From positions 1 through 16,327 of the forward strand of contig JAJDEH010000415.1 in NCBI GenBank assembly GCA_029259935.1: a stretch of 16,327 bases of DNA, given 5' to 3'. Source of the stretch: Planctomycetota bacterium. GTDB taxonomy: Bacteria > Planctomycetota > Planctomycetia > Pirellulales > Pirellulaceae. The notes beneath the pieces were generated by a model, which was not told the origin of the DNA, ran no database searches, and saw nothing but the letters and a program-made list of their open reading frames with translations. This document shows, in pieces, positions 1,916 through 16,327 of the stretch (position 1 is its first letter; each line of letters opens with the position of its first letter). The translations under genes and the position numbers were made by a program.

Positions 1916-2407
1916 TCATATTTCCTCGTCTGGTGACGGGACCTGTCCGTCAATCATCTTGTTTAATAGCCGAGCCAACTCGAGCCGTTCTTTGTCCGTC
2001 AAACCAGCTGTTACCCGCTCCAACTGATCCTGCTGAACTTTCCAGACGCGTTTCAGCAGCATGCGGCCTCGGCGTGTAATCTTCACGAACCTCTCACGGC
2101 GGTCGGCGGCGTTGACCGTCCGTTCGATGAGGCTCGCTTTTTCCAAACGCGACAGCATGACGGTCACGTTGGGAAACGATACGTACAACTCTTTGCCCAA
2201 CTTCCGCTGTGTAATCTGCTCGCCGTGTAAACGATTGAGCACAGTCAGCATTTGAAATTGAGGCGGTGTCAGCCCGAATCTCGCGTAGTGTGGCCCCATC
2301 TTCCGCGCCAGCGCGCCGAAACCACGCACGACCGACACCACTGCTCGACGGGCCGTTGTGTCCGGAAATTCATCTGTCAGGTCCGGTATTTCGTGTTCTT
2401 TGTTCAT
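1916..2407 (-). CDS. MarR-family winged-helix transcriptional regulator
   Basis: The 163-residue product has the MarR layout: an N-terminal dimerisation helix (about 20-45), then LTPPQFQMLTVL (46-57), the recognition region QRKLGKELYVSFPNVTVMLSRLEKASLI (about 67-94) and a wing containing the typical DRRERFVKIT segment (102-111), ending in a long C-terminal helix. MarR proteins are dimers that usually repress their own operon and release DNA when a small molecule, often phenolic, binds or when a cysteine is oxidised. This protein has no cysteine, so a ligand-type switch is more likely than thiol sensing. Its ATG overlaps the stop of the MBL gene (ATGA), so the two are translationally coupled. 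No strong ribosome site of its own is visible. The 16-bp palindrome at 3308-3323 is the best candidate operator. Confidence 0.93.
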   Translation of the reverse strand: MNKEHEIPDLTDEFPDTTARRAVVSVVRGFGALARKMGPHYARFGLTPPQFQMLTVLNRLHGEQITQRKLGKELYVSFPNVTVMLSRLEKASLIERTVNAADRRERFVKITRRGRMLLKRVWKVQQDQLERVTAGLTDKERLELARLLNKMIDGQVPSPDEEI

Positions 2408-5407: not shown

Positions 5408-6268
5408 TCAATAGAGCAACTCGACCCAACGATGGCCAGCTTCGAGTTCAGCTTTGCGTCGGGTCCACTTTTCTGGCGAGCCGGCGATTTTGGCAAACAC
5501 CGCGTCGAGCTCGTCGCGGATTTGCTCTAGCCCGGCCACGTACACGTACGTCTTGGCATCCGACAACATTTTCCATAATTCGCTGCCGCGCGACTGAACT
5601 GCACTGTGCCAGTCAACCAAGTCCGACCAGTGAGGCCGTTGGCTCAAGGCGGTGATCGCCTCGAATGTTTCCTTGTCGTAGTATTGTGCGAAGTCGTTTC
5701 GTTGTTCATTCATATACAACAATTCGAGGCCCGTTCTGCCACCGTGGAACAAGCAAATGCGGCCCTGAAAATCGGGTGCGTGCTTGTAGATGTATTTCAC
5801 AAAAGCGCGGAACGGGGCAATGCCAGTGCCCGCGCCGATGAGGATCAGAGCGGCGTCGGGTTCTTCTGGCACCGCGAAGGCAACGCCGTAGGGACCAGAC
5901 AGAGTCAAAGAGTCTCTCGCGCGTAGATCGCACAAATAGTTCGAGGCGACACCGTCGCATAGCTCGCCACTGTACTCGTCGATGTAGGTGCAGCGGCGAA
6001 CGCAGATGTGAACCCTGACTGCTCCCTCGCTGGTTCGCTCAGGCAAGTCGGCGAGGCTGTATAGACGGAAGTGATGTTCCTGGCCGAGTTCTTTCTGTCC
6101 GGGCGCTAGTATGCCGATGTTTTGACCAGCCTTGACGTCGAATTCGGGACTCTCGACATCCAGCACGATCTCTCGCACTTCGTCCAGCGATTCGCTCGGC
6201 GTGATGCGTACGGACGCCACGACCTTGGCTTGGAACTGAGTGCTCGTGTCATAATCTTGTAGTCGCAT
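5408..6268 (-). CDS. Plant-type ferredoxin-NADP(+) reductase-like flavoprotein
   Basis: The 286-residue product has the FAD- and NAD(P)-binding halves of the ferredoxin-NADP reductase family: RLYSLAD (68-74, FAD), GVASNYLC (107-114), GPYG (125-128), GAGTGIAPFRAF (146-157, nucleotide loop), YVYVAGLE (241-248) and a C-terminal aromatic Tyr (VELLY) that stacks on the flavin in plant-type enzymes. It should move electrons between ferredoxin (or flavodoxin) and NADP(H) in the cytoplasm. ATG 6268 is chosen because GGGAGG lies ten bases upstream. An earlier TTG at 6304 would overlap the preceding gene and lacks a ribosome site. It is the last gene of the rnf operon, 22 nt after the Cys4 membrane protein, which suggests that it connects the PFOR/Rnf ferredoxin pool to NADPH. 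Pyridine nucleotide preference is inferred from the family. Confidence 0.85.
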   Translation of the reverse strand: MRLQDYDTSTQFQAKVVASVRITPSESLDEVREIVLDVESPEFDVKAGQNIGILAPGQKELGQEHHFRLYSLADLPERTSEGAVRVHICVRRCTYIDEYSGELCDGVASNYLCDLRARDSLTLSGPYGVAFAVPEEPDAALILIGAGTGIAPFRAFVKYIYKHAPDFQGRICLFHGGRTGLELLYMNEQRNDFAQYYDKETFEAITALSQRPHWSDLVDWHSAVQSRGSELWKMLSDAKTYVYVAGLEQIRDELDAVFAKIAGSPEKWTRRKAELEAGHRWVELLY

Positions 6269-6278
6269 CGCGTTCTTG

Positions 6279-6290: not shown

Positions 6291-6509
6291 TCAGGTTTTT
6301 GCAACGCCTTCTAGTTCGTTGATCGTCTCGTCGGCTGCGGTTTGCGGCAGGCAATCCGGGCGCGAACAGCCATGGCAATCGAAACAACCGTGAACATCTT
6401 CGCCAGCAAGATCAGCCTTGAACACTCGCCGCCACGCCGCCTGCACTAACAGCCACGCGCCGAGAATGGCTGTGATCACAATGACTGCTTTTATCGCTGC
6501 TTCGAACAT
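6291..6509 (-). CDS. Small one-helix membrane protein with Cys4 motif, Rnf-associated
   Basis: The 72-residue product starts at ATG 6509, 19 nt after the rnfA stop. A GGAG precedes it at a long spacing of 13 bases. A frame starting upstream at 6548 would overlap rnfA. Residues 5-24 form one transmembrane helix, followed by positive residues (WRRVFK), which places the C-terminus in the cytoplasm. A compact motif C42-x2-C45-x2-C48-x4-C53 (GCFDCHGCSRPDC) follows, then an acidic tail. The family is not recognised by name. The architecture resembles NqrM, a small one-helix Cys-rich protein needed for the iron centre between NqrD and NqrE of the related Na+-NQR complex. Since RnfA and RnfE are the homologues of NqrE and NqrD, an iron-delivery or maturation role is an attractive inference. 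Alternatives are a FeoB-associated-type Cys-rich protein or an extra electron-transfer subunit. Confidence 0.75.
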   Translation of the reverse strand: MFEAAIKAVIVITAILGAWLLVQAAWRRVFKADLAGEDVHGCFDCHGCSRPDCLPQTAADETINELEGVAKT

Positions 6510-6528
6510 GTCTGCTACATTGCTCCTT

Positions 6529-7107
6529 TCAACTGGACAGTCCCGCAAAGCCCATGAAGCAAATCGACAGCAAGCCCGCCAGTAGCAGCGTGATTGCCGT
6601 GCCTTTGACGAGATCGGGAGTCTCGGCCAGTTCTAGTTTTTCGCGCAGCCCCGCCATCAGCACAAGAGCCAAGGTAAAGCCCGCGCCCGCTCCCAGCGCG
6701 TAAACGATCGACTGCACAAAACCGTATCCTTTGTTGGTCTGAAACAAAGCCAAGCCGAGGATCGCGCAGTTGGTTGTGATTAGCGGAAGGAAAATCCCGA
6801 GCGCTCGGAACAGCGTCGGGCTTGTCTTCTTGATGAACATCTCCACGAGTTGAACAGTCGATGCGATCACAGCGATGAACGAGATCAGCCGCAGATAATT
6901 CACGTCGAGCATGGACAGCAGCGATTGAATGCCGAAAGCGGCCATCGAGCTGATCAACATCACAAATGTAACCGCACCGCCCATACGCGTCGCGGTGGCG
7001 AGCTTGCCCGATACACCAAGGAACGGGCAAATACCCAAGAAGTACGCCAGCACAAAGTTGTTGATCAGGCAGGCGTTGATGAAGATCGACCCTAGAGAAT
7101 CGTTCAT
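6529..7107 (-). CDS. rnfA: Rnf complex membrane subunit RnfA
   Basis: The 192-residue hydrophobic protein has the RnfA/NqrE signatures NNFVLAYFLGICPFLGVS (16-33), KTSPTLFRALGIFLPLITTN (94-113) and CAILGLALF. About six transmembrane helices are expected. Cys27 and Cys114 lie in the two inverted-repeat positions that hold the intramembrane iron-sulfur centre shared with RnfE. It is part of the ion-translocating ferredoxin:NAD+ oxidoreductase. The ATG overlaps the rnfE stop by four bases (ATGA), so translation is coupled. Length is normal for the family (about 190). Confidence 0.96.
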   Translation of the reverse strand: MNDSLGSIFINACLINNFVLAYFLGICPFLGVSGKLATATRMGGAVTFVMLISSMAAFGIQSLLSMLDVNYLRLISFIAVIASTVQLVEMFIKKTSPTLFRALGIFLPLITTNCAILGLALFQTNKGYGFVQSIVYALGAGAGFTLALVLMAGLREKLELAETPDLVKGTAITLLLAGLLSICFMGFAGLSS

Positions 7108-7742
7108 GATATCGACTCCTTCGCTCGGCGTGACCGCAGCTTTCCGATCCAGTTAAACAACAACAGCCAACCCGCCAACGCGAAAAAACCTCCGGGAGGC
7201 AACAGCATGACGACCCATTCCTGGTATCGCTGGCCAAACAGCGAAACGTCGAACAGGCTGCCGTTGCCCAAGATTTCGCGGACACCACCCAAGCACAACA
7301 ATGCCAGGCTGAAGCCGAGTCCCATTCCCAACGCGTCAAGCAGCGAGCGGAACATGCCGTTCTTCGATGCAAAGGCTTCGGCACGACCGAGAATCAGGCA
7401 GTTAACCACAATCAATGAAATGAACGCGCCCAAGCGCCCGTGCAGTTCCAGACTGATGGCCTGAATGAGATAGTCGACAATGGTGACAAATGTAGCGATC
7501 ACCAAAATGTAAGTCACGATCCGCGCTTGCTTGGGCACGAAGTGACGCAGCGCGGAGACGACAAGGTTCGACATCAGCAACACGAACGCGGTCGCCAGAC
7601 CCATCGCCAAAGCGTTCTCCGCCGTGTTGCTTACCGCCAGCACGGGGCACATGCCCAGCACATAGACGAATACCGGGTTCTGCTTCCAGATCCCTTTAAG
7701 GAACTCGTCGGTGCCGGTCGTCTGCTCGACCATAGTTGCCAT
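7104..7742 (-). CDS. rnfE: Rnf complex membrane subunit RnfE
   Basis: The 212-residue product matches RnfE/NqrD: KGIWKQNPVFVYVLGMCPVLAVSNTAENALAMG split across residues 16-48, then GAFISLIVVNCLILGRAEAF (105-124) and a C-terminal membrane segment with LPPGGFF. Cys32 and Cys115 are the expected ligands of the iron-sulfur centre shared with RnfA. ATG 7742 follows the rnfG stop by one base, with GGAGG eleven bases upstream. An in-frame upstream start at 7841 would lie inside rnfG and add a non-homologous extension, so it is rejected. Confidence 0.95.
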   Translation of the reverse strand: MATMVEQTTGTDEFLKGIWKQNPVFVYVLGMCPVLAVSNTAENALAMGLATAFVLLMSNLVVSALRHFVPKQARIVTYILVIATFVTIVDYLIQAISLELHGRLGAFISLIVVNCLILGRAEAFASKNGMFRSLLDALGMGLGFSLALLCLGGVREILGNGSLFDVSLFGQRYQEWVVMLLPPGGFFALAGWLLLFNWIGKLRSRRAKESIS

Positions 7743-7743
7743 G

Positions 7744-8451
7744 TCAGCCCTCGCCTCCTTCGTATCGGAAGTCCGCCTGCTGCTGGTAAACACGAGGAAT
7801 CCAGCGAGCCGAACTCGCGCGCAGCATATTCGCCGTGGCACGTGAAGTAACCGTTGCGCCGGAAATCCCGTCGATCTGCCAGCGCGCGACTTTCTTTCCC
7901 GGTTTGACGAACTCGATGGGGTGAGCCAACTCGTTGCCTTCCGCCTTTAACTGCACATCGAGTTGCTCAAAGTTGCGGAGGAAATCGGCATCGGTTTCGA
8001 TTCGATCACCCAAGCCCGGGGTCTCGCGACTTTCGAGCACTCGCATCCCCACAATCGATTGCGTTTCGAACGAGTAGCCATAGAGCACTCGTACGACATC
8101 CTGGTAACCCATGCCCTGCGCCTCGATGGCCAGTCCCACCAGATTGTGCTTGTCGTCGTAGCCAGCGAAGACCAGGTCCGAGCCTTCTTTGTCTGGCGAA
8201 GTCCGCTCGAAGCGGCCGTTTTCGCTCAACTGGAATGCGTCGCTCGTGCGAGCGCCGGGCAGGACATCGAGAATCGCCCGTTGTCGCAATTCAATCTTGT
8301 TGCGCTGGATGATCGGGCGCGTGGTTTCGTACACCGTCACGATGGCCAAGGCGCATACAATGCCGACGCCTACGACAGCACCGTACATGCGCGCGGCAGA
8401 GGTCGGCGACTGTCTGCTTTTGCTCGTTGTCAGTGTGTTGAAGTCAGTCAT
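7744..8451 (-). CDS. rnfG: Rnf complex FMN-binding subunit RnfG
   Basis: The 235-residue product has one N-terminal transmembrane helix (about 24-42) and an extracytoplasmic FMN-binding domain. SGATVT (197-202) is the flavinylation motif, with Thr202 as the likely residue carrying FMN through a phosphoester bond, attached by an ApbE-type transferase not encoded in this window. Other family marks are GMGYQDVVRVLYG (113-125) and ETPGLGDRI (143-151). ATG 8451 overlaps the rnfD end by eight bases and has GGAGG seven bases upstream (8459-8463), which decides it over a longer frame. Electrons pass through this subunit on the outer face of the complex. Confidence 0.95.
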   Translation of the reverse strand: MTDFNTLTTSKSRQSPTSAARMYGAVVGVGIVCALAIVTVYETTRPIIQRNKIELRQRAILDVLPGARTSDAFQLSENGRFERTSPDKEGSDLVFAGYDDKHNLVGLAIEAQGMGYQDVVRVLYGYSFETQSIVGMRVLESRETPGLGDRIETDADFLRNFEQLDVQLKAEGNELAHPIEFVKPGKKVARWQIDGISGATVTSRATANMLRASSARWIPRVYQQQADFRYEGGEG

Positions 8452-9472
8452 GCGACGGCCTCCGCCTCGACGTTCCATAGACTCGTGGCTGAATCCAGTT
8501 GTCGATGTGAGGTGACACGGCGTTGCTCAACAGAATGGCGTACATCACTCCCTCGGGCATGCCACCCCACACGCGGATCACCACCACGAGCAGACCAATC
8601 AAAGCGCCGTACAACATGCAGCCTGAATGGGTCATCGGAGACGCAACCGGATCCGTGGCCATGAACACCGCGCCCAGCATCAGGCCGCCAGAGAACACCA
8701 TGAACAACGGCCCGGCGTAGCGACTGGGATCGATCCAATTCAGAACGAAACTGCAAATCGCGACAGTCAGGAAGATGGCGACCGGGATCTGCCAACTCAT
8801 CATTCGCCGTGCCACGAGGTAAGCGCCTCCCAGCAGGATGAGCAGTGCGGAAGTCTCGCCAGTCGAACCTGCGACGGAACCCAAGAACAAATCGCCCGTC
8901 GTGGCGCTCGTGACTCGATCGAATTTCCAACTTGCAAGCGGAGTCGCGCCTGAAAGGACGTCATACCGCGGCTCGGTGAACGGCAACGCTAAGGTCGAGG
9001 TCGGCAATGCGGTGAAACGACTTGTCGGCATTGCCGGCCAGGTAGTCATCGCCACGGGAAAGGCGGCTTGCAAGAGTGCCCGCCCGACCAGCGCCGGGTT
9101 AAACGGGTTGTACCCCAAGCCACCAAACAGCAACTTGCCCAAGCCAATAGCAAGCACGCCGCCAACCGCCACCATCCACAATGCCAGGCCAGGTGGCAGA
9201 GTCAGCCCGAAAAGCAAACCGGTGACAGCAGCCGACCAGTCTCCCACACTGGATTCTCGGCCAGTGAAGCGACACAACAGATACTCGGTCAACACGCAAG
9301 AAGATACCGCGGTGACCAGCGTGAGCAGTGCAGCCAGACCGAAGGCATAGACAGCAAAGGCGCTGATGGGCAGCAACGCCAACACGACGTTGAACATGAT
9401 CGTGTCTACGCTGTTACCACTGGCCAAGAGCGGCGCGCTGCGGAGCTGCAAGGTCTTCGCCAATTGTGTCAT
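8444..9472 (-). CDS. rnfD: Rnf complex membrane FMN subunit RnfD
   Basis: The 342-residue integral membrane protein matches RnfD/NqrB. It shows repeated hydrophobic helices, GYNPFNPALVGRALLQAAFP (120-139), the covalent FMN motif SGATPLA (174-180, FMN expected on Thr177), FMVFSGGLMLGAVFMATDPV (257-276) and GGMPEGVMYAILLSNAVSPHID near the C-terminus. It is thought to form part of the ion path and carry electrons across the membrane with RnfG. ATG 9472 overlaps the rnfC stop (ATGA). A longer frame from 9667 would run back through rnfC and shows no RnfD-like sequence there. Confidence 0.95.
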   Translation of the reverse strand: MTQLAKTLQLRSAPLLASGNSVDTIMFNVVLALLPISAFAVYAFGLAALLTLVTAVSSCVLTEYLLCRFTGRESSVGDWSAAVTGLLFGLTLPPGLALWMVAVGGVLAIGLGKLLFGGLGYNPFNPALVGRALLQAAFPVAMTTWPAMPTSRFTALPTSTLALPFTEPRYDVLSGATPLASWKFDRVTSATTGDLFLGSVAGSTGETSALLILLGGAYLVARRMMSWQIPVAIFLTVAICSFVLNWIDPSRYAGPLFMVFSGGLMLGAVFMATDPVASPMTHSGCMLYGALIGLLVVVIRVWGGMPEGVMYAILLSNAVSPHIDNWIQPRVYGTSRRRPSHD

Positions 9473-10809
9473 GCCGTTGCCCTCGCCTTGCGCACCGCAG
9501 CCTTGGCAACGCGAAAGCGATGCACCAGCGGAATATGCGATGGACAAACGAACGTGCAACTGCCGCACTCGAAACAGTCGGCCAAATGGAACTCCGACGC
9601 CATGCGTTCGTACTGTTGCTGGCGAGCCAACAATCCCAATTGCGAAGGATTGAGATAGAGCGGACACGCTTCAAGACAGGACGCGCAGCGAATGCAGGGG
9701 TATTCTTTTTGACTGGCCAGTTTGCCGGTCTCACGCTCGGTGAGTGCGATGATGCCAAGCGTGCCTTTGATGATGGGAATATCAAGGCTCGACACGGCCT
9801 CACCCATCATGGGCCCGCCCAGGAACACACAGGAAATATCGTCGTGAACGCCGACGGTCTCCAACACGAAACGTAACGGAGTTCCGATTGGAATGCGGTA
9901 GTTCCCTTTGTTCTTGACCGCCGGGCCGCCAATCGTGATCACACGTTCTTGCAGGCCAGCACCGTGCGGAAGCAGCCTCCCGATTTCCGACGTACTGGTA
10001 ACGTTGAAACACAGTGTATGGACGTCGATCGCATGCCCGTCCATTGGCTTCTCGCGCCCCAAGAGAGTTTTCATCAGCATTTCCTGAGCGCCTTGCGGAT
10101 ATTTGACCGGCAACACGCGAACCGTGATCGGCGCATCGTCTGGGATCGCCGACTGAATGGCTTTCGCAGCATCGCGTTTATTGCTCTCGATGCCCACGAT
10201 CGCGTCAGCCGCACGGGTCGCTCGTAGTAAATAACGAATGCCAAGAACGATTTCCTTAGGATATTCGAGCATCACTCGGTGGTCGGCGGTCAAGTACGGT
10301 TCGCATTCAGCCCCGTTGATTAGAATCGTGTCGACATACATCCCTTCCGGTATCTGCATCTTGGCGTGGCTCGGGAACCCGGCTCCACCCAGTCCCACGA
10401 TACCGGCTTGCTGGACCGCGTTTACGATCTCTTCAGGACTTGCCGTCGCGACATCGCACGGCGGCCCTTCCAGCCGTTCCTGCGTCGAAGCCGGGAACGG
10501 TTCAATGAAAATGCAAGGAACCATTCTTCCGTCGATGCTTGGAGCGAGATCGAGGCGACGCACGACGCCCGAGGTTGGGGCGTGCAATGCGACGGAGACG
10601 AATCCGTCGGGACGAGCGATACACTGGCCACGGGTTACTTCCTGACCTTCATTGACAATCGGGACGGCTGGTTTCCCGATGTGCTGCGACAACGGCACAA
10701 TCAGCACGGGCGCGAAGGGGAATTGTCGGATCGGCGAGCCACTCGTGTCGTCCTTCAACGTGGGCGGGTGGATTCCGTGCGCGAACGTCTTGCCACCGAA
10801 AATGTTCAT
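9469..10809 (-). CDS. rnfC: Rnf complex NADH-binding iron-sulfur subunit RnfC
   Basis: The 446-residue soluble subunit has the N-terminal RnfC barrel-sandwich region (HAPTSGVV, 77-84), the NADH/FMN domain shared with complex I NuoF (GLGGAGFPSHAK, 139-150; NGAECEPYLTADHRVM, 165-180), a SLBB region, and two [4Fe-4S] motifs at C372/C375/C378/C382 and C412/C415/C418/C422. It oxidises or reduces NAD(H) at the cytoplasmic face. ATG 10809 lies 13 nt after the PFOR stop, with AAGGA ten bases upstream. The length is near the 440-450 of clostridial RnfC and lacks the long C-terminal extension seen in gamma-proteobacteria. Confidence 0.96.
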   Translation of the reverse strand: MNIFGGKTFAHGIHPPTLKDDTSGSPIRQFPFAPVLIVPLSQHIGKPAVPIVNEGQEVTRGQCIARPDGFVSVALHAPTSGVVRRLDLAPSIDGRMVPCIFIEPFPASTQERLEGPPCDVATASPEEIVNAVQQAGIVGLGGAGFPSHAKMQIPEGMYVDTILINGAECEPYLTADHRVMLEYPKEIVLGIRYLLRATRAADAIVGIESNKRDAAKAIQSAIPDDAPITVRVLPVKYPQGAQEMLMKTLLGREKPMDGHAIDVHTLCFNVTSTSEIGRLLPHGAGLQERVITIGGPAVKNKGNYRIPIGTPLRFVLETVGVHDDISCVFLGGPMMGEAVSSLDIPIIKGTLGIIALTERETGKLASQKEYPCIRCASCLEACPLYLNPSQLGLLARQQQYERMASEFHLADCFECGSCTFVCPSHIPLVHRFRVAKAAVRKARATA

Positions 10810-10822
10810 CGTCGGCCCGTCC

Positions 10823-13800
10823 TTAGTTGAATTTCTCGGCCCGCGCGATCCACTTGTCGACATCCTTCGCGCTACGATCCTTGGGCAGGCCGGGGTGGAT
10901 CACTTCAGCGGTGCAGCGCTCGGCCGCTTTCACCAGATCTTGATAGGGACCGGCCAGGGCGTTCTTGATGTACGCCTTCTTTTGATCGTTGTACTCAAAG
11001 ATGTTGGCGTTGAGCTTGATGCACTCGTCACAAGCCGAGCACTGTTCGGTGTCAATCCAGGGGGCCATGTACTCGCCGGCCGACGGTGGTGCTCCGTTGC
11101 CGCTGATCTCGACAGCGGTCGGCGCTGCTACGGCGCTTGAGAGCGCCGCGATCCCCTCGCCGCTGGCAAGCTGCATGAGGCCCGCTGCGATCTTGCTGCT
11201 CATTTCGCGGCGGACATCGGCTTCGATGTCAGCTCGCGACAGCTCGTCTTCGCCCACCCGCGCGATCGCTCTCAACATCGTCCAGAAGTCGCGACGATCC
11301 TCGCATGACTGGACGATGGGTTGAGAAACCAGCAACCGCATGAGTTGCTGCTTGCGGTCGATGCTCCACACATACGGGAACCGGCCCTCGCGATCTTCGT
11401 GGGAAAGTTCGAGAAACTCGCCCAGCGGGACCATGTTTTCGTTCCACGTGTCGGGCGGTGCGACGCGAAAGTGCTTGCGAAACCGAATCTCGCTGACCGC
11501 GAAGTCGGCGAACGTCATCGGTAATTCCATCGTCTTCTCTCGCCCGTTGTCGAGGTATTTCAGCGTGTAGATCGGCCAGTCCTGATCCTGCGCCGGGTTG
11601 CCTTCCAGATCGAAGCACTCCTCTGGGCGCGGTCCGTTGTCTGGGTTGTAGCGGAACAGGGGATAGGCACGAGACTCGACGACAAGCCGCGCTTGGTTGG
11701 CGCTCATGTCGTCCCCAATGCCGTGTTCGGGCTGACATGAGGTGTAGAGGTTGAACATCGCCGGCCGGCGCGCTTTCAGCCCCTCGATAAAGCCTTCGAT
11801 CATGTGATTGGGATGCGCGATCGTGCTTTGCATGACGTAGGTATTGCGATGCGCCATACCGATCAGTCCCATCTCTTTGCGCACTTCCTGCTTACCTTGT
11901 ATCGCTTTGCCGAATTGCGCCATGTCGGAGACTTGGCCGAAGAAACCCGACGTGCAAGCCTGGCCCCCCGTATTCGAATAGACCTGCGTATCAAGGATCA
12001 GCACCTTGACCGGCTTGCCGGACATCATCAGACGCGAAAGATTTTGAAAGCCGATGTCGTACATCGCTCCATCGCCACCCAAAGCAACCACGGGCGGGCA
12101 GAGCTCCCATTCGTTGTCACTGAACTGCCGCCAGTTGAAATACGTGAGGAATTCGTCGTGCTTGCTGGGCTCGTAGCCGCCCGCAAGTTCGAGTTCCGCC
12201 CTGCGGATCGCCTTGAATCCTTCCGCCATTTTTGACATATGCCCTTCGAAGACGCCCATGGCCATCGATGCGGCGTCCTGGAATAAATGGTTCGCCCAAG
12301 GAAACGGGTAGGGGTTGAAAGGAAACGTGCTACCCCAAACCGACGAGCATCCCGTCGAGTTCAGAATGCCGGCATTCGCACGACCGCGACCCGTCGTGCC
12401 CTCGATGTATTTCCATTTCAGTCTCTTGAGCTGGGCAACTAGACGCGTGATGCGTTGCAACCATTCTTGGTCAATCGGCTCGCCGCCGCCCATCCGCTCG
12501 ACATGTTCAGCGATGCTGGCAAGCGTGACGTCGCCAGCACCAATCTCGTCGATCACGCTCGCAATCGTGGCCGGGTCGCCGACGTCGATTTCACGGACGA
12601 GCTGATGCTGAATGTGTTCTTCCAGCTTGCCGATCAATTCGGTCAAGTGAGCGACATGACGTTCGATCCGTGGCTGCATGAGCGCCTCGACAGTCGCCAC
12701 GAATAGATGAACCACCGTCTTTTCGCCGCAGCCCAGGCATGCGCCATCACCGCTGACGAAGGCGGAGTAGTTTCTCTTATCGAGCAGGATCGTCTCCAGC
12801 GCGCCAATTCCCTGTTCGATATCGTCGACTCGAATGTACTTCCGTGGCGTGCTAGGCAAGTCGAGCCAGAAGTCCCAATTTCGCCGCAGGTTCGTGATGG
12901 ATTCGGCGGTCTGCGGCACGGCCCTCAAGGCATCATCTTCGCAGACCGCGACGCATTCCATGCATCCTTTGCAGGTGGTTGGGTTGACCGTGATGCTCAG
13001 CAGCCCACCTTCGCCGGGCGACTTTTGTTCCTTGAGCGTATAATACGGCCTTGAAAGTGCGAACTGGAAATCGCCAAGCTCTTCACGGAATAGCTCGAAC
13101 TCGTGCTTCAATTCGTCGCGCGCGGGTTCGTCCACTTTGGTATCTCGCAGTGTCTTTTCAATCGCCTCGTCCAGCATGCCGGCGACGCTGTCGGTCTCTT
13201 TGGCTTCCGCGAAGATCGCACGCAGGTGTTGCTCAGCTTCGCGCACGGCCTTCGACAAGTGTTTGACTTCGCGCCCATGCTTACGCAGCCGATTGACAAC
13301 CGTATCGAAGACTTGCGACACCTCATTCACCAAACCGGGAATGGCGGTATCGGGACAAATGGTATAGCAATTGCCGCAAGCCGTGCAGTTTTCGGAAATC
13401 CACTGGGGATGTTGAAAGCGAATGCCAGTCATATCGCGAAATAACGAAGTCACCGCGGGCATCTGGCCGAGTCCGATGAACGGATCGGTGATCGTATCGG
13501 TGCCCATGCCGCGAGCATAGAAGCTGCCGGTCTGTTCCCAGAAACGATGAATGTCGGTAGCGGGTGCCTTGCTTTGCGGCTGGCGTTTGAGCATCACGGG
13601 AAGCGGTGGCTCGGCGGAAGCTGCCCCCGCGGCGGTCGTCGCTTCTTCGGTGACCGGGCCATGTGGCACGGGCTGGACTTCATCGAAGCCGCGTTGGACG
13701 ACACGCAGATTCTCTTCGACAACCCGCGCGCCCTTGGCACCGAACTTGTGCTTGAGCTGGCTGTGGATCGCGGCAAGGAGTCTTTCTTCCGAGAGCCCCG

Positions 13801-15757
13801 CCTGCTCCATTACGTGAGACGTGGCGAAAAAAGCTCCCTGAAATGCGATGCCCTGCATTCGCAGTTGTAGATCTGGATCGGTCGCCTCTTCTCGGGCAAT
13901 CTTGAATGCATCGACGCTGTACACACTGATGTTGTTGTCCACGATGATTCGGCGGTAACCAGCCGGAATGCTGGCCCACACCGCGTCAGCCGACGGCTGA
14001 TCACTTTGAATAACGAAGACACCACCTTTCCTGAGACCGGCCAAGGCATTGGTGTGCTGAAAGACATTGGGGTCCGGTGAAAGCACGACGTCCACATAAA
14101 AGTATTCGCAGTTAACCCGAATTGGCTCAGGAGCCGCCGACAGATAATAAGTGGTCGGCTGTCCCTTCTTCTCTGACCCGTACTTCGGATTGGCTTTGAT
14201 ATGAAAACCCAGCAGGTCGAACAAGGTCATCGCCAGGTTTTTGCCGGTGGTGATCGCTCCCCAGCCACCCACTGAGTGGAAGCGGACGGTAATACTTCCT
14301 TCGGGCATCAAGTTTGGATTCTCGGAACCGCGCAAGGCCAACTGCCTCACCCGGGGATAGCCGCTTTCAATGTTCTCTTGATGGATGCGCTGTTTGGGAG
14401 TGACAGGCTCGTCGCGTAGAAAGTCGATCGACAAGTAGAAGAACTTTTGGTGCTTTCCCTTCGGCAGCATGTTCTCAACTGCGGCGATCAATCCCTCAGG
14501 CTGGAGATCGCGGCTGCCCATGCCAAAGGAACCCGAATAGAGAGCAGGTGTGTCCGTCACCTTCTGGTAGACTTCGAGTTCCGGAAACGCCAAATGTTCT
14601 GGGTCGCGACCATTCTCCAAACAACGGCTCATCGTGGCCCGCACCTCGCGCATCATGGGTAGTTCCACGGCCAGCGGTTGGTCGAGTCTTTCTAGGACGG
14701 CAACTCCTTTTTTTCCTTTCAGAACGCGGCTCAGCAAATCCGCGGGAAACGGCCGGAACATCACGAGATTGACTACACCAACCTTGATGCCGCGTTGGTC
14801 GCGCATGTAGTCGGCGACCGCCTCGGCCGTGGGGATCATGCTGCCTTGGCCTAGGATCAGATAGTCGGCGTCCTTGACCCGGTAGTTGAGTACGCGATCG
14901 TACCTGCGCCCTGTTAGCTCGTAAAACTCCTCGAAAGCTTGCGCGGCCAGATCGAGAATGTGATCGAAAAAGTAAGGACGCTGAGCTGCCACGCTCTGCA
15001 TGTACGAGTCTTGGTTTTGCACCAGTCCGGCCATCACCGGATTGTCGACGTCCCACAACTCTGGAATGCGGCGTCGCGTTTCGCCGTAGATGATCCGTTG
15101 CGATGGGGTGGGCGTGTCGATGATGTCTTCGGGACGGCCCAGGTACTCTCCGATCAGTTCCCGTTCGGGAACTTGGATCGATTCAATCAAGTGCGTGGTC
15201 AGGAATCCATCTTGAGCGATCGCGCCGGGCGTCAGGGCCAGTTCGGCAATGCGGTGAGCGATGATGTTCAGGTCGGCAACCGACTGCGCGCCTTTGGCGA
15301 ACATCTGAAAGAAGCCCGTGTCGTCGATGCAATGATAGTCGTCATGCCCAGCATGAACGTTGAGGTTCGCCTTGGTCATGGCGCGAGAACCGATGTTCAG
15401 CACATAGGTCAATCGCTTGCCGACCGCCGCGTACAACGACTCGTGCATATAGGCGATGCCTTGGCCCGACGAAAAGTTGGTCGAACGCAACCCGGTCATC
15501 GACAGGCCGGCCGTCACGGCGGCGGCGGCGTGCTCACCCTCTGGTTCAATGAAGATCAAGGGACGGCCCGAAACGTTGACGTGGCCAGCCGCAGCCGCCT
15601 CGGCCCAGTATTCGCCCATTTGTGTGGACGGCGTAATGGGGTAAGCGCCGGCCGCATCGCTGGACTCGCGCTCGCACATCACGACGGCCGTGTTCCCATC
15701 CACGGCGGCCCGTGTTCCCGTGTATTTGAACTGCTTTTTGCGTTTCTTCGTCGGCAT
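10823..15757 (-). CDS. nifJ: Giant pyruvate:ferredoxin (flavodoxin) oxidoreductase
   Basis: The 1644-residue product is a single-chain PFOR, against about 1170-1200 for usual members. In order: pyruvate domain (AYPITPSTQMGEYWAEAAAA, 38-57), transketolase-like domain II (about 288-440), gamma domain (FHSVGGWGAITTGKN, 493-507), first 4Fe-4S motif (C791/794/797/801), a charged helical insert (about 812-910), second motif (C929/932/935/939, with Glu in place of the usual Pro), proximal cluster GACLGCGE (C1007/1010), a second helical insert (about 1025-1125), TGCSS (C1137), the TPP site GDG (1228-1230) to SNTGGQ (1261-1266), C1341, and a C-terminal ferredoxin-like segment (C1573/1576/1579 and C1615). 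The expected reaction is pyruvate + CoA to acetyl-CoA + CO2 with ferredoxin reduction. ATG 15757 is preferred over TTG 15811. No strong ribosome site is visible. It lies between rnfB and rnfC. Confidence 0.93.
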   Translation of the reverse strand: MPTKKRKKQFKYTGTRAAVDGNTAVVMCERESSDAAGAYPITPSTQMGEYWAEAAAAGHVNVSGRPLIFIEPEGEHAAAAVTAGLSMTGLRSTNFSSGQGIAYMHESLYAAVGKRLTYVLNIGSRAMTKANLNVHAGHDDYHCIDDTGFFQMFAKGAQSVADLNIIAHRIAELALTPGAIAQDGFLTTHLIESIQVPERELIGEYLGRPEDIIDTPTPSQRIIYGETRRRIPELWDVDNPVMAGLVQNQDSYMQSVAAQRPYFFDHILDLAAQAFEEFYELTGRRYDRVLNYRVKDADYLILGQGSMIPTAEAVADYMRDQRGIKVGVVNLVMFRPFPADLLSRVLKGKKGVAVLERLDQPLAVELPMMREVRATMSRCLENGRDPEHLAFPELEVYQKVTDTPALYSGSFGMGSRDLQPEGLIAAVENMLPKGKHQKFFYLSIDFLRDEPVTPKQRIHQENIESGYPRVRQLALRGSENPNLMPEGSITVRFHSVGGWGAITTGKNLAMTLFDLLGFHIKANPKYGSEKKGQPTTYYLSAAPEPIRVNCEYFYVDVVLSPDPNVFQHTNALAGLRKGGVFVIQSDQPSADAVWASIPAGYRRIIVDNNISVYSVDAFKIAREEATDPDLQLRMQGIAFQGAFFATSHVMEQAGLSEERLLAAIHSQLKHKFGAKGARVVEENLRVVQRGFDEVQPVPHGPVTEEATTAAGAASAEPPLPVMLKRQPQSKAPATDIHRFWEQTGSFYARGMGTDTITDPFIGLGQMPAVTSLFRDMTGIRFQHPQWISENCTACGNCYTICPDTAIPGLVNEVSQVFDTVVNRLRKHGREVKHLSKAVREAEQHLRAIFAEAKETDSVAGMLDEAIEKTLRDTKVDEPARDELKHEFELFREELGDFQFALSRPYYTLKEQKSPGEGGLLSITVNPTTCKGCMECVAVCEDDALRAVPQTAESITNLRRNWDFWLDLPSTPRKYIRVDDIEQGIGALETILLDKRNYSAFVSGDGACLGCGEKTVVHLFVATVEALMQPRIERHVAHLTELIGKLEEHIQHQLVREIDVGDPATIASVIDEIGAGDVTLASIAEHVERMGGGEPIDQEWLQRITRLVAQLKRLKWKYIEGTTGRGRANAGILNSTGCSSVWGSTFPFNPYPFPWANHLFQDAASMAMGVFEGHMSKMAEGFKAIRRAELELAGGYEPSKHDEFLTYFNWRQFSDNEWELCPPVVALGGDGAMYDIGFQNLSRLMMSGKPVKVLILDTQVYSNTGGQACTSGFFGQVSDMAQFGKAIQGKQEVRKEMGLIGMAHRNTYVMQSTIAHPNHMIEGFIEGLKARRPAMFNLYTSCQPEHGIGDDMSANQARLVVESRAYPLFRYNPDNGPRPEECFDLEGNPAQDQDWPIYTLKYLDNGREKTMELPMTFADFAVSEIRFRKHFRVAPPDTWNENMVPLGEFLELSHEDREGRFPYVWSIDRKQQLMRLLVSQPIVQSCEDRRDFWTMLRAIARVGEDELSRADIEADVRREMSSKIAAGLMQLASGEGIAALSSAVAAPTAVEISGNGAPPSAGEYMAPWIDTEQCSACDECIKLNANIFEYNDQKKAYIKNALAGPYQDLVKAAERCTAEVIHPGLPKDRSAKDVDKWIARAEKFN

Positions 15758-15848
15758 GGTCGTCTCAATAGGGTGAGGTACTCGGAAGCAATTCCGCAAA
15801 GTGCATGCCAAGAGGGATTGGTTTCGGTTTGGCCGCAGCTACGCCGCG

Positions 15849-16327
15849 TCAGGTGGGTGCGTCGTATATGGTGCCTTTGCGAATGACCTTGTGTGCCGCC
15901 TGTCCCTTCAACGCGCCTAGCTTCTCATCTAGCCAGACAATTGCTCCCGTCGGACAACTCTGCGTCGCCGCGGCAGTGGCGGGGCCTTTGGAATAGTCGA
16001 CAACAGGCAAGTTGTGGCTCATCGTGATCAGTTCCGGGGCGTCCCTAGCGCACCGCTCGCAAGCAGTGCAGGCGACTTCACAGTCTTCCAGAACCTCGTC
16101 ACCCGCTTCCCGCGATCGGCAGGCGACCCAAAGCTGGTGGCTCTGAGGGTGAATCGAAAACAAGTCTTTGGGGCAGGCTACCACACAATCCCCGCAGGCC
16201 GTGCAACGTTCTTCGTCGACGACCGGTAACTGGTGCTCGTTCATCTCGATGGCGTCGAAGGTACAAGCCTCGTCGCAGTCGCCATAACCGAGGCATCCCC
16301 AAAAGCAGCCCTTGCCGCCACCTGCCA
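15849..16327 (-). CDS. rnfB: Rnf complex ferredoxin-like subunit RnfB (C-terminal part only)
   Basis: The open frame enters from the right edge with no start; 158 codons plus stop are visible. It begins with the RnfB-type cluster C-x3-C-x5-C-x3-C (GCFWGCLGYGDCDEAC), continues with a classic 4Fe-4S motif CTACGDCVVACP, then WVACRSREAGDEV, a further Cys set CEVACTACERC, and SCPTGAI. This order matches the C-terminal ferredoxin region of RnfB, which accepts electrons from soluble ferredoxin. The usual CP after the CEVACTACERC set is replaced by DAPE. The missing N-terminal part should hold the membrane anchor and the first cluster. It is upstream of PFOR by 91 nt with no clear terminator between them, so one transcript is likely. 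The operon promoter lies outside the window. Confidence 0.9.
   Translation of the reverse strand, partial: AGGGKGCFWGCLGYGDCDEACTFDAIEMNEHQLPVVDEERCTACGDCVVACPKDLFSIHPQSHQLWVACRSREAGDEVLEDCEVACTACERCARDAPELITMSHNLPVVDYSKGPATAAATQSCPTGAIVWLDEKLGALKGQAAHKVIRKGTIYDAPT

Follow-up and report, generated by a model that had tools for sequence, protein, structure and literature searches.

A one-helix cysteine protein encoded behind rnfA as a candidate accessory protein of an Rnf branch that may have exchanged RseC

RseC is a two-helix membrane protein that is needed in E. coli together with RsxABCDGE. As laid out in PMC11729352, its N-terminal domain holds a CX2CX5C motif of three conserved cysteines next to an unconserved fourth, the isolated domain carries an O2-labile Fe-S cluster upon reconstitution, and function is lost on changing two of the three cysteines. 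The same account reports that RseC contacts the reducer complex in two-hybrid assays, RsxB and RsxD being the partners tested, and that it is homologous to R. capsulatus RnfF in the N-terminal part of the latter (PMC11729352). In Clostridium ljungdahlii, autotrophy is lost when rseC is deleted, just as it is when rnf is; there RseC is presented as a transcriptional regulator, direct action on the complex being also allowed, and seven of 30 acetogens with RNF genes are listed without rseC (PMC9124969). For NQR, the membrane site that corresponds to the one in RnfA and RnfE seems to need the small protein NqrM, as stated in PMC12174285. No assembly factor is named for Rnf in the open-access literature that we searched, the described one being NqrM for NQR; the protein family presented here bears on how Rnf assembles the cluster of its membrane core.

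The window, by which we mean the whole stretch of 16,327 nucleotides of Planctomycetota DNA analysed here, carries an Rnf operon on its minus strand. In the order of transcription it comprises the end of rnfB, a nifJ-type pyruvate:ferredoxin oxidoreductase (PFOR), rnfC, rnfD, rnfG, rnfE, rnfA, the gene of a small cysteine protein and a gene for a protein resembling ferredoxin--NADP reductase (FNR) (Table 1). The initial annotation, made from the letters alone, had described a 72-residue protein with one transmembrane helix and the pattern C-x2-C-x2-C-x4-C downstream of rnfE-rnfA. The open reading frame, an AlphaFold2 model and the rnfA profile match bear this out, and the strand, which had been left unstated, is the minus strand.

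Table 1. Coordinates of the operon features in the window
Feature	Position	Strand	Basis
Cysteine protein, one helix, 72 aa	6291..6509	-	ORF translation; AlphaFold2 helix 2-29; family alignment A1; C42, C45, C48, C53
AAGGAG, likely ribosome-binding site for the cysteine protein	6523..6528	-	Sequence
rnfA, 192 aa	6529..7107	-	TIGR01943, 243 bits, over cut-off
rnfE	7104..7742	-	Profile match; start at 7742 is a chosen one
rnfG (FMN_bind)	7744..8478	-	Best NCBIfam match rnfG, below its cut-off
rnfD, open frame	8444..9667	-	Profile match; true start probably about 9463
rnfC, open frame	9469..10863	-	Profile match; true start probably about 10806
nifJ-type pyruvate:ferredoxin oxidoreductase with C-terminal ferredoxin-like domain (Fer4_13)	10823..15811	-	Profile match
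rnfB, C-terminal part alone, continuing past the window end	15849..16325	-	Profile match
Ferredoxin--NADP reductase (FNR)-like protein	5408..6269	-	PetH/BoxA-like, below their cut-offs

The gene of the cysteine protein opens with ATG 19 nt behind the rnfA stop and is preceded by AAGGAG; the plus strand of the same interval is interrupted by stops. In the AlphaFold2 model the single helix is of high confidence and the tail that follows, with C42-x2-C45-x2-C48-x4-C53, is unstructured (pLDDT about 50). Since RR follows in the helix end, the positive-inside rule places this tail probably in the cytoplasm. On the side of the complex, C27 (GICPFL) and C114 (TTNCAIL) of RnfA align with the corresponding cysteines in solved RnfA chains, and the RnfE cysteines in GMCPVL and VVNCLIL are their partners at the intramembrane [2Fe-2S] site. 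An earlier idea that rnfB is absent and replaced by the FNR-like gene was dropped, as the frame at the window end is rnfB. In the PFOR of the window, which is about 1650 residues long, an extended segment separates the POR and TPP parts. Elsewhere in the window, a plus-strand ORF of 574 aa (27-1751) is probably antisense; the minus frame is open there, repetitive and, judged by eye, beta-helix-like, with repeats like NxCYxNxMAGIGxR. A MarR-type regulator (1916-2407, minus strand; NCBIfam matches below their cut-offs) overlaps a metallo-beta-lactamase-fold protein (PF00753; 2404-3273, minus strand).

Searching a species-genome collection with the window RnfA yielded 259 relatives, the best 80 of which were kept (75-90% identical). 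Their record titles name Planctomycetota, Verrucomicrobiota, Myxococcota, Bacteroidota, Gemmatimonadota, Acidobacteriota, Calditrichota, Gammaproteobacteria and others. A one-helix cysteine protein is encoded behind rnfA in 76 of these best 80 of 259 loci, at a distance of at most 60 nt in 68, 66-186 nt in seven and 468 nt in one (L044). In two more loci (L050 and L059) the contig breaks off after the N-terminus of the protein, and L015, where the contig stops at rnfA, is uninformative. Counted over the informative loci, a relative follows rnfA in 78 of 79, the exception being L060; three loci beyond this set (L117, L170, L171) also have the small protein behind rnfA. The ratio dN/dS stays below 1 in all 190 pairs inside the set divergence limits, pairs that are not independent of each other, and amounts to 0.06-0.44 in 23 pairs without any common member. 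With a relative in 78 of 79 loci and dN/dS below 1 throughout, the frame is a real gene and not a chance ORF.

The neighbourhood recurs as well. The nifJ gene adjoins rnfC in most loci of the 80-locus set that are long enough to show it, and the placement of the PFOR between rnfB and rnfC suggests direct electron delivery from pyruvate to Rnf. In the window the likely ATG of the FNR-like gene lies 21 nt past the stop of the cysteine protein. Because an FNR-like gene follows the small gene in 72 of the 74 loci uncut by a contig end, the operon may connect PFOR and Rnf with NADPH.

Family alignment A1 joins the window member with those of 74 of the 76 loci (75 rows; L008 and L053 were omitted because contig ends truncate them). 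Eight columns are conserved at 90% or more, namely W19, Q23, W26, F30, D38, C45, C48 and C53, which gives a near-invariant W-x3-Q-x2-W-x3-F plus three cysteines, mostly spaced as CX2CX5C. The conserved triad consists of C45, C48 and C53 of the window protein, and C42 occupies the column of a conserved Arg. Behind residue 28, 65 of the 75 members have four cysteines, six have three, one has two, two have five and one has eight; L034 is the member with two, and L041 and L046 are among those with three. CX2CXnC with n=4-7 is found in 69 of 75 members and with n=5 in 53. The feature of the family is therefore a CX2CX5C-like triad with a fourth cysteine that shifts, and the four-cysteine pattern of the window is one version of it.

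Comparison with described families gave no relative. The NqrM profile (PF04400) matches 0 of 75 members at E<=0.01, GSCGG, invariant in 15 of 15 aligned NqrM rows, is absent from the A1 consensus and its near-invariant columns, and hhalign reaches 42.5%, confined to the cysteine patch; homology to NqrM is not supported. The NqrM-like build, a single N-terminal helix followed by a triad, is nonetheless present, with mostly X5 here versus CX2CX6C there. For RseC (PF04246) no member matches at E<=0.01 and hhalign gives 0.7%, so that homology is not shown here either; the build of two helices with an N-terminal cysteine domain is also not found, the small protein having one helix and its cysteine domain at the C-terminus. 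What it has of RseC is the CX2CX5C triad (exact X5 in 53 of 75, X4-X7 in 69 of 75) and the trait of tracking Rnf rather than NQR. The FeoB_associated profile (PF12669) finds the window member alone, one of 75, with 20.8 bits where the cut-off is 27, and this identity was rejected, given also the linkage to rnfA across many phyla. In NCBIfam, AimP and GspM matched one member each among the 75, which we take as chance, and no Pfam or NCBIfam model covers the family. A protein search with the single sequence found one other protein; with the alignment, 225 were found in a set of 5.8 billion. Among the 120 of these matches that were listed, none has a Pfam domain and the named ones are called 'hypothetical' or 'uncharacterized'. 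A profile search of the PDB returned one match at chance level (E 0.83).

These results support in part what the initial annotation had put forward. The survey of Rnf operons in other phyla that it proposed recovers a conserved small cysteine ORF behind rnfA, and its proposal of a dedicated Rnf-linked membrane protein is upheld by this placement and by a profile that tracks Rnf, not NQR. Of the analogy to NqrM, the topology, a similar cysteine triad and an apbE neighbour in a sister branch stand; kinship is not supported, as the comparison with DUF539/NqrM profiles came out negative. The objections the annotation had raised against itself, namely an ORF not conserved in relatives, freely varying cysteines or membership in an unrelated family such as FeoB-associated proteins, are not borne out: the ORF is conserved, three cysteines are near-invariant and the last profile stays sub-threshold in its one match. 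What the annotation missed is RseC, which the small protein replaces.

The small cysteine protein goes with Rnf and not with NQR. Among 148 Bacteroidota genomes its profile matches three, each with an rnfA over the cut-off, and there is no match in the 22 genomes that have NqrE-like matches under the cut-off and nothing above it. In 149 Planctomycetota genomes there are two matches, both directly behind rnfA; this is a lower bound, as at most 40 candidates were scored per genome and seven proteins of the sister branch were missed. In general, a family-like gene may be present without an A1 match at E<=0.001, as the L060 genome shows. NqrM (PF04400) is present in three of 34 genomes of the first set, so that the two proteins are not mutually exclusive.

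The sister branch has RnfA proteins 58-64% identical to that of the window and encodes a shorter, more variable one-helix cysteine protein behind rnfA in seven of seven loci, followed in five of the seven by apbE, a flavin-transferase gene. In a set of 24 sister-branch sequences, W-x2-h-[QED] is found in 12 and the triad in either order in 19. The grounds for homology of this protein to the window family (Cys4) are its position, its topology and the RnfA tree, which unites the sister branch with the Cys4 branch at a support of 99, and not a profile test. In the same tree, from which L103 and L172 were omitted as duplicates, the Cys4 branch comes close to one clade: the Cys4 label requires two changes and the sister label one. 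The Cys4 label was given to all of L001-L080 except L060, including L015, L050 and L059, where the protein is unseen or partial.

What is new here is the complementarity of the small cysteine protein with RseC. In Bacteroidota, rnfA is over the cut-off in 24 of 148 genomes; 21 of these have RseC over its cut-off without the small protein, and three have the small protein without RseC. The other 124 genomes contain no RseC over the cut-off (two weak matches lie below it). In all 21, the RseC match and rnfA share a contig and are at most about 6 kb apart, and no motif-bearing protein stands behind rnfA. Short hydrophobic frames with 2-4 cysteines do occur behind rnfA in three of these 21 RseC-type loci (L149 at +130 and +413, L150 and L151 beyond +800); as the motif is absent, they were rejected as family members and taken as chance frames. 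For Planctomycetota, 30 loci were fetched from 63 genomes with a match. RseC is found in 0 of 9 with the small cysteine protein; among the other 21, 15 have it over the cut-off and one below. An independent draw of 188 Myxococcota genomes gave 32 rnfA matches of at least 205 bits, all of which were taken. From these, 30 operons were fetched, L246 was set aside as NQR, and G006 and G008 were already present as L013 and L020, which leaves 29; L013 and L020 are further operons of this sample with the small protein. Operons were assigned to a branch by RnfA identity (42-53% versus 58-83%) and gene content, with no tree. The ten ordinary Rnf operons have no small protein. RseC lies no more than 7 kb away in seven of them, and of the three without it two are at contig ends. 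Of the 19 operons of the branch under study, 18 encode the small protein (one as N-terminus only) and none has RseC within 7 kb or up to the contig end.

Pooled over the three phylum samples, counted as genomes or operons and with kinship ignored, RseC accompanies the small protein in 0 of 31 cases versus 43 of 52 for the others. Genomes with both proteins fit this picture. RseC occurs in three of 34 Cys4 genomes (33 from the best-80 loci, plus G155), and in these three there is, in addition, an rnfA scoring 258-285 bits that is followed by rnfB and lacks the small protein, a second Rnf type that no other of the 34 genomes shows. Matches of about 174-211 bits, under the cut-off, were taken as NQR in these 34 genomes without individual inspection. 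In G004, RseC lies 2.3 kb from the other-type rnfA; in G027 and G034 its neighbours are RseB on one side and a Do-type protease on the other, as in the rpoE operon. The small protein replaces RseC in this Rnf branch, and the exchange may have happened once: the Cys4 branch is close to one RnfA clade, so that a single exchange is possible and the counts are not independent. Three observations speak for a functional link rather than ancestry alone: both proteins are bound to Rnf operons, the triad is common to them without detectable kinship, and cells with two Rnf types keep both.

In genomes of the first set, each Rnf copy of the branch found beyond the first carries a small cysteine protein of its own (five of five: G004, G010, G012, G016 and G033). 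In G004, three Rnf copies differ in their helpers, with RseC near L211, a short cysteine protein at L210 and Cys4 at L216. G033 has a degenerate two-cysteine version behind one copy (L034, 10582-10752) and a four-cysteine version at the second (L215). L234 is a branch Rnf with no small gene behind rnfA, and the same genome (G421) has a second Rnf, L240, with the gene. At L060 there is no small cysteine gene behind rnfA and the FNR gene starts about 60 nt behind it, but a family-like gene is found elsewhere in the genome (L247, 9469-9654, minus strand). It encodes 61 residues with one helix, W-x3-Q-x2-W and CX2CX6C, with a weak match to A1 (E 0.008). The gene lies 70 nt behind a PFOR-like pair, a TPP-binding protein followed by an 812-residue protein that ends in Fer4_13, a C-terminus also present in the NifJ of the window. 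The place behind rnfA is thus not absolute, and this copy hints at a tie to PFOR. Two loci, L004 and L010, have the small cysteine gene and no FNR match in the following 4.5-5.1 kb; in L010 a sigma-factor-like frame, judged by eye, comes after it. Five of the 21 other Planctomycetota genomes have Rnf and neither RseC nor the small protein, behind rnfA or by profile. In these five (L111, L112 and L116 in G161, G078 and G074; L095 and L096 in G067 and G062) rnfB is directly behind rnfA. In Methanosarcina acetivorans, taken as a control, rnfA is present and RseC was not found.

The evidence strongly supports a dedicated Rnf accessory protein next to rnfA. As to what it does, we consider it rather probable that it is the accessory protein of one large Rnf branch, a non-homologous counterpart of RseC and functional analogue of NqrM that would act in assembly or repair at the RnfA-RnfE cluster. 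Its helix would dock on the membrane part of the complex, while the CX2CX5C loop in the cytoplasm would bind Fe or a labile Fe-S unit, and the protein would deliver or protect the [2Fe-2S] held by C27 and C114 of RnfA and two RnfE cysteines for as long as this site faces the cytoplasm. Such a protein would not be a fixed redox subunit. We judge this role the most likely one because the site cysteines are present, NqrM has the same build and apbE neighbours both nqrM and the small gene of the sister branch. Against a strict need speak L234, the five Planctomycetota genomes, Methanosarcina acetivorans and the two-cysteine L034. An unlikely alternative is a redox subunit or tether, the cysteines of which would carry a cluster relaying electrons between RnfA-RnfE and ferredoxin, PFOR or the FNR-like reductase. 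The FNR-like gene next door, nifJ in the operon, the L060-genome copy downstream of PFOR-like genes, the second of which encodes the same C-terminal ferredoxin-like domain, and a topology like the single helix of RnfB or NqrF all agree with such a relay. However, L004 and L010 carry the small gene without an FNR match nearby, at L060 rnfA is followed by FNR although the small gene is missing there, and the sister branch mostly has apbE next instead. Moreover, the fourth cysteine moves, some members keep two or three, and the subunit entries consulted in PMC12174285 list no such part for solved Rnf.

That the protein stabilises, regulates or senses redox state for Rnf, with no iron handling for RnfA-RnfE, follows what one paper proposes for RseC; with C. 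ljungdahlii on H2/CO2, deleting rseC reduced rnf transcripts by a factor of about 3.5 to 26 (PMC9124969). We regard this role, too, as doubtful, since the one-helix protein of 72 aa shows no DNA-binding domain, the cysteine triad is the best-kept part outside the helix region, and the cysteines matter in E. coli RseC (PMC11729352). A role in maturing clusters elsewhere in the operon, those of RnfB, RnfC, NifJ or the fused ferredoxin, in place of the RnfA-RnfE site would suit an operon rich in Fe-S proteins and the copy adjoining PFOR-like genes. It appears quite improbable, as the gene stays behind rnfA where rnfB moved behind FNR, as in Bacteroidota, and as NqrM does the parallel job at the corresponding NQR membrane site (PMC12174285). 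A FeoB-associated or general iron-uptake protein placed here by chance, which the sub-threshold PF12669 score of the window protein might suggest, is hardly credible with one match in 75 members and linkage to rnfA in many phyla.

Together with the mutual exclusion with RseC, the family brings together, as one testable class, a so-called regulator and a set of hypothetical proteins that had no name and are about 50-95 residues long. For heterologous expression of such Rnf operons it also points to a tiny gene to include, one that annotation easily misses. More tentatively, and with somewhat less than even confidence, RseC, NqrM and the small cysteine family may be seen as three unrelated solutions for loading or protecting the buried [2Fe-2S] of RnfA-RnfE or NqrE-NqrD via a cytoplasmic CX2CX3-7C triad. 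RseC would then be a maturation factor and not a regulator, and each Rnf would have its own loader even among several copies per cell.

Set beside the known systems, the family resembles each in part. With FeoB_associated proteins it has in common that it is short, one-helix and cysteine-rich, but the window member alone matches, below the cut-off, and no feoB is among the genes searched. The N-terminus of RnfB also has one helix followed by a cysteine motif and belongs to the same complex, yet the operon has rnfB as a gene of its own and no profile match links the two. NqrM shares the order of one N-terminal helix, a first cysteine and a triad, CX2CX6C in its case, and its gene lies beside the pump operon and apbE (PMC6209661) just as the small gene of the sister branch lies beside apbE; it differs in the invariant GSCGG and in serving NQR, not Rnf. 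RseC, about 150 aa long, with two helices behind its cysteine domain and no profile similarity, is likewise an Rnf-tied membrane protein with three conserved cytoplasmic cysteines in CX2CX5C and an unconserved fourth, and it is found with most other Rnf operons of the phylum samples.
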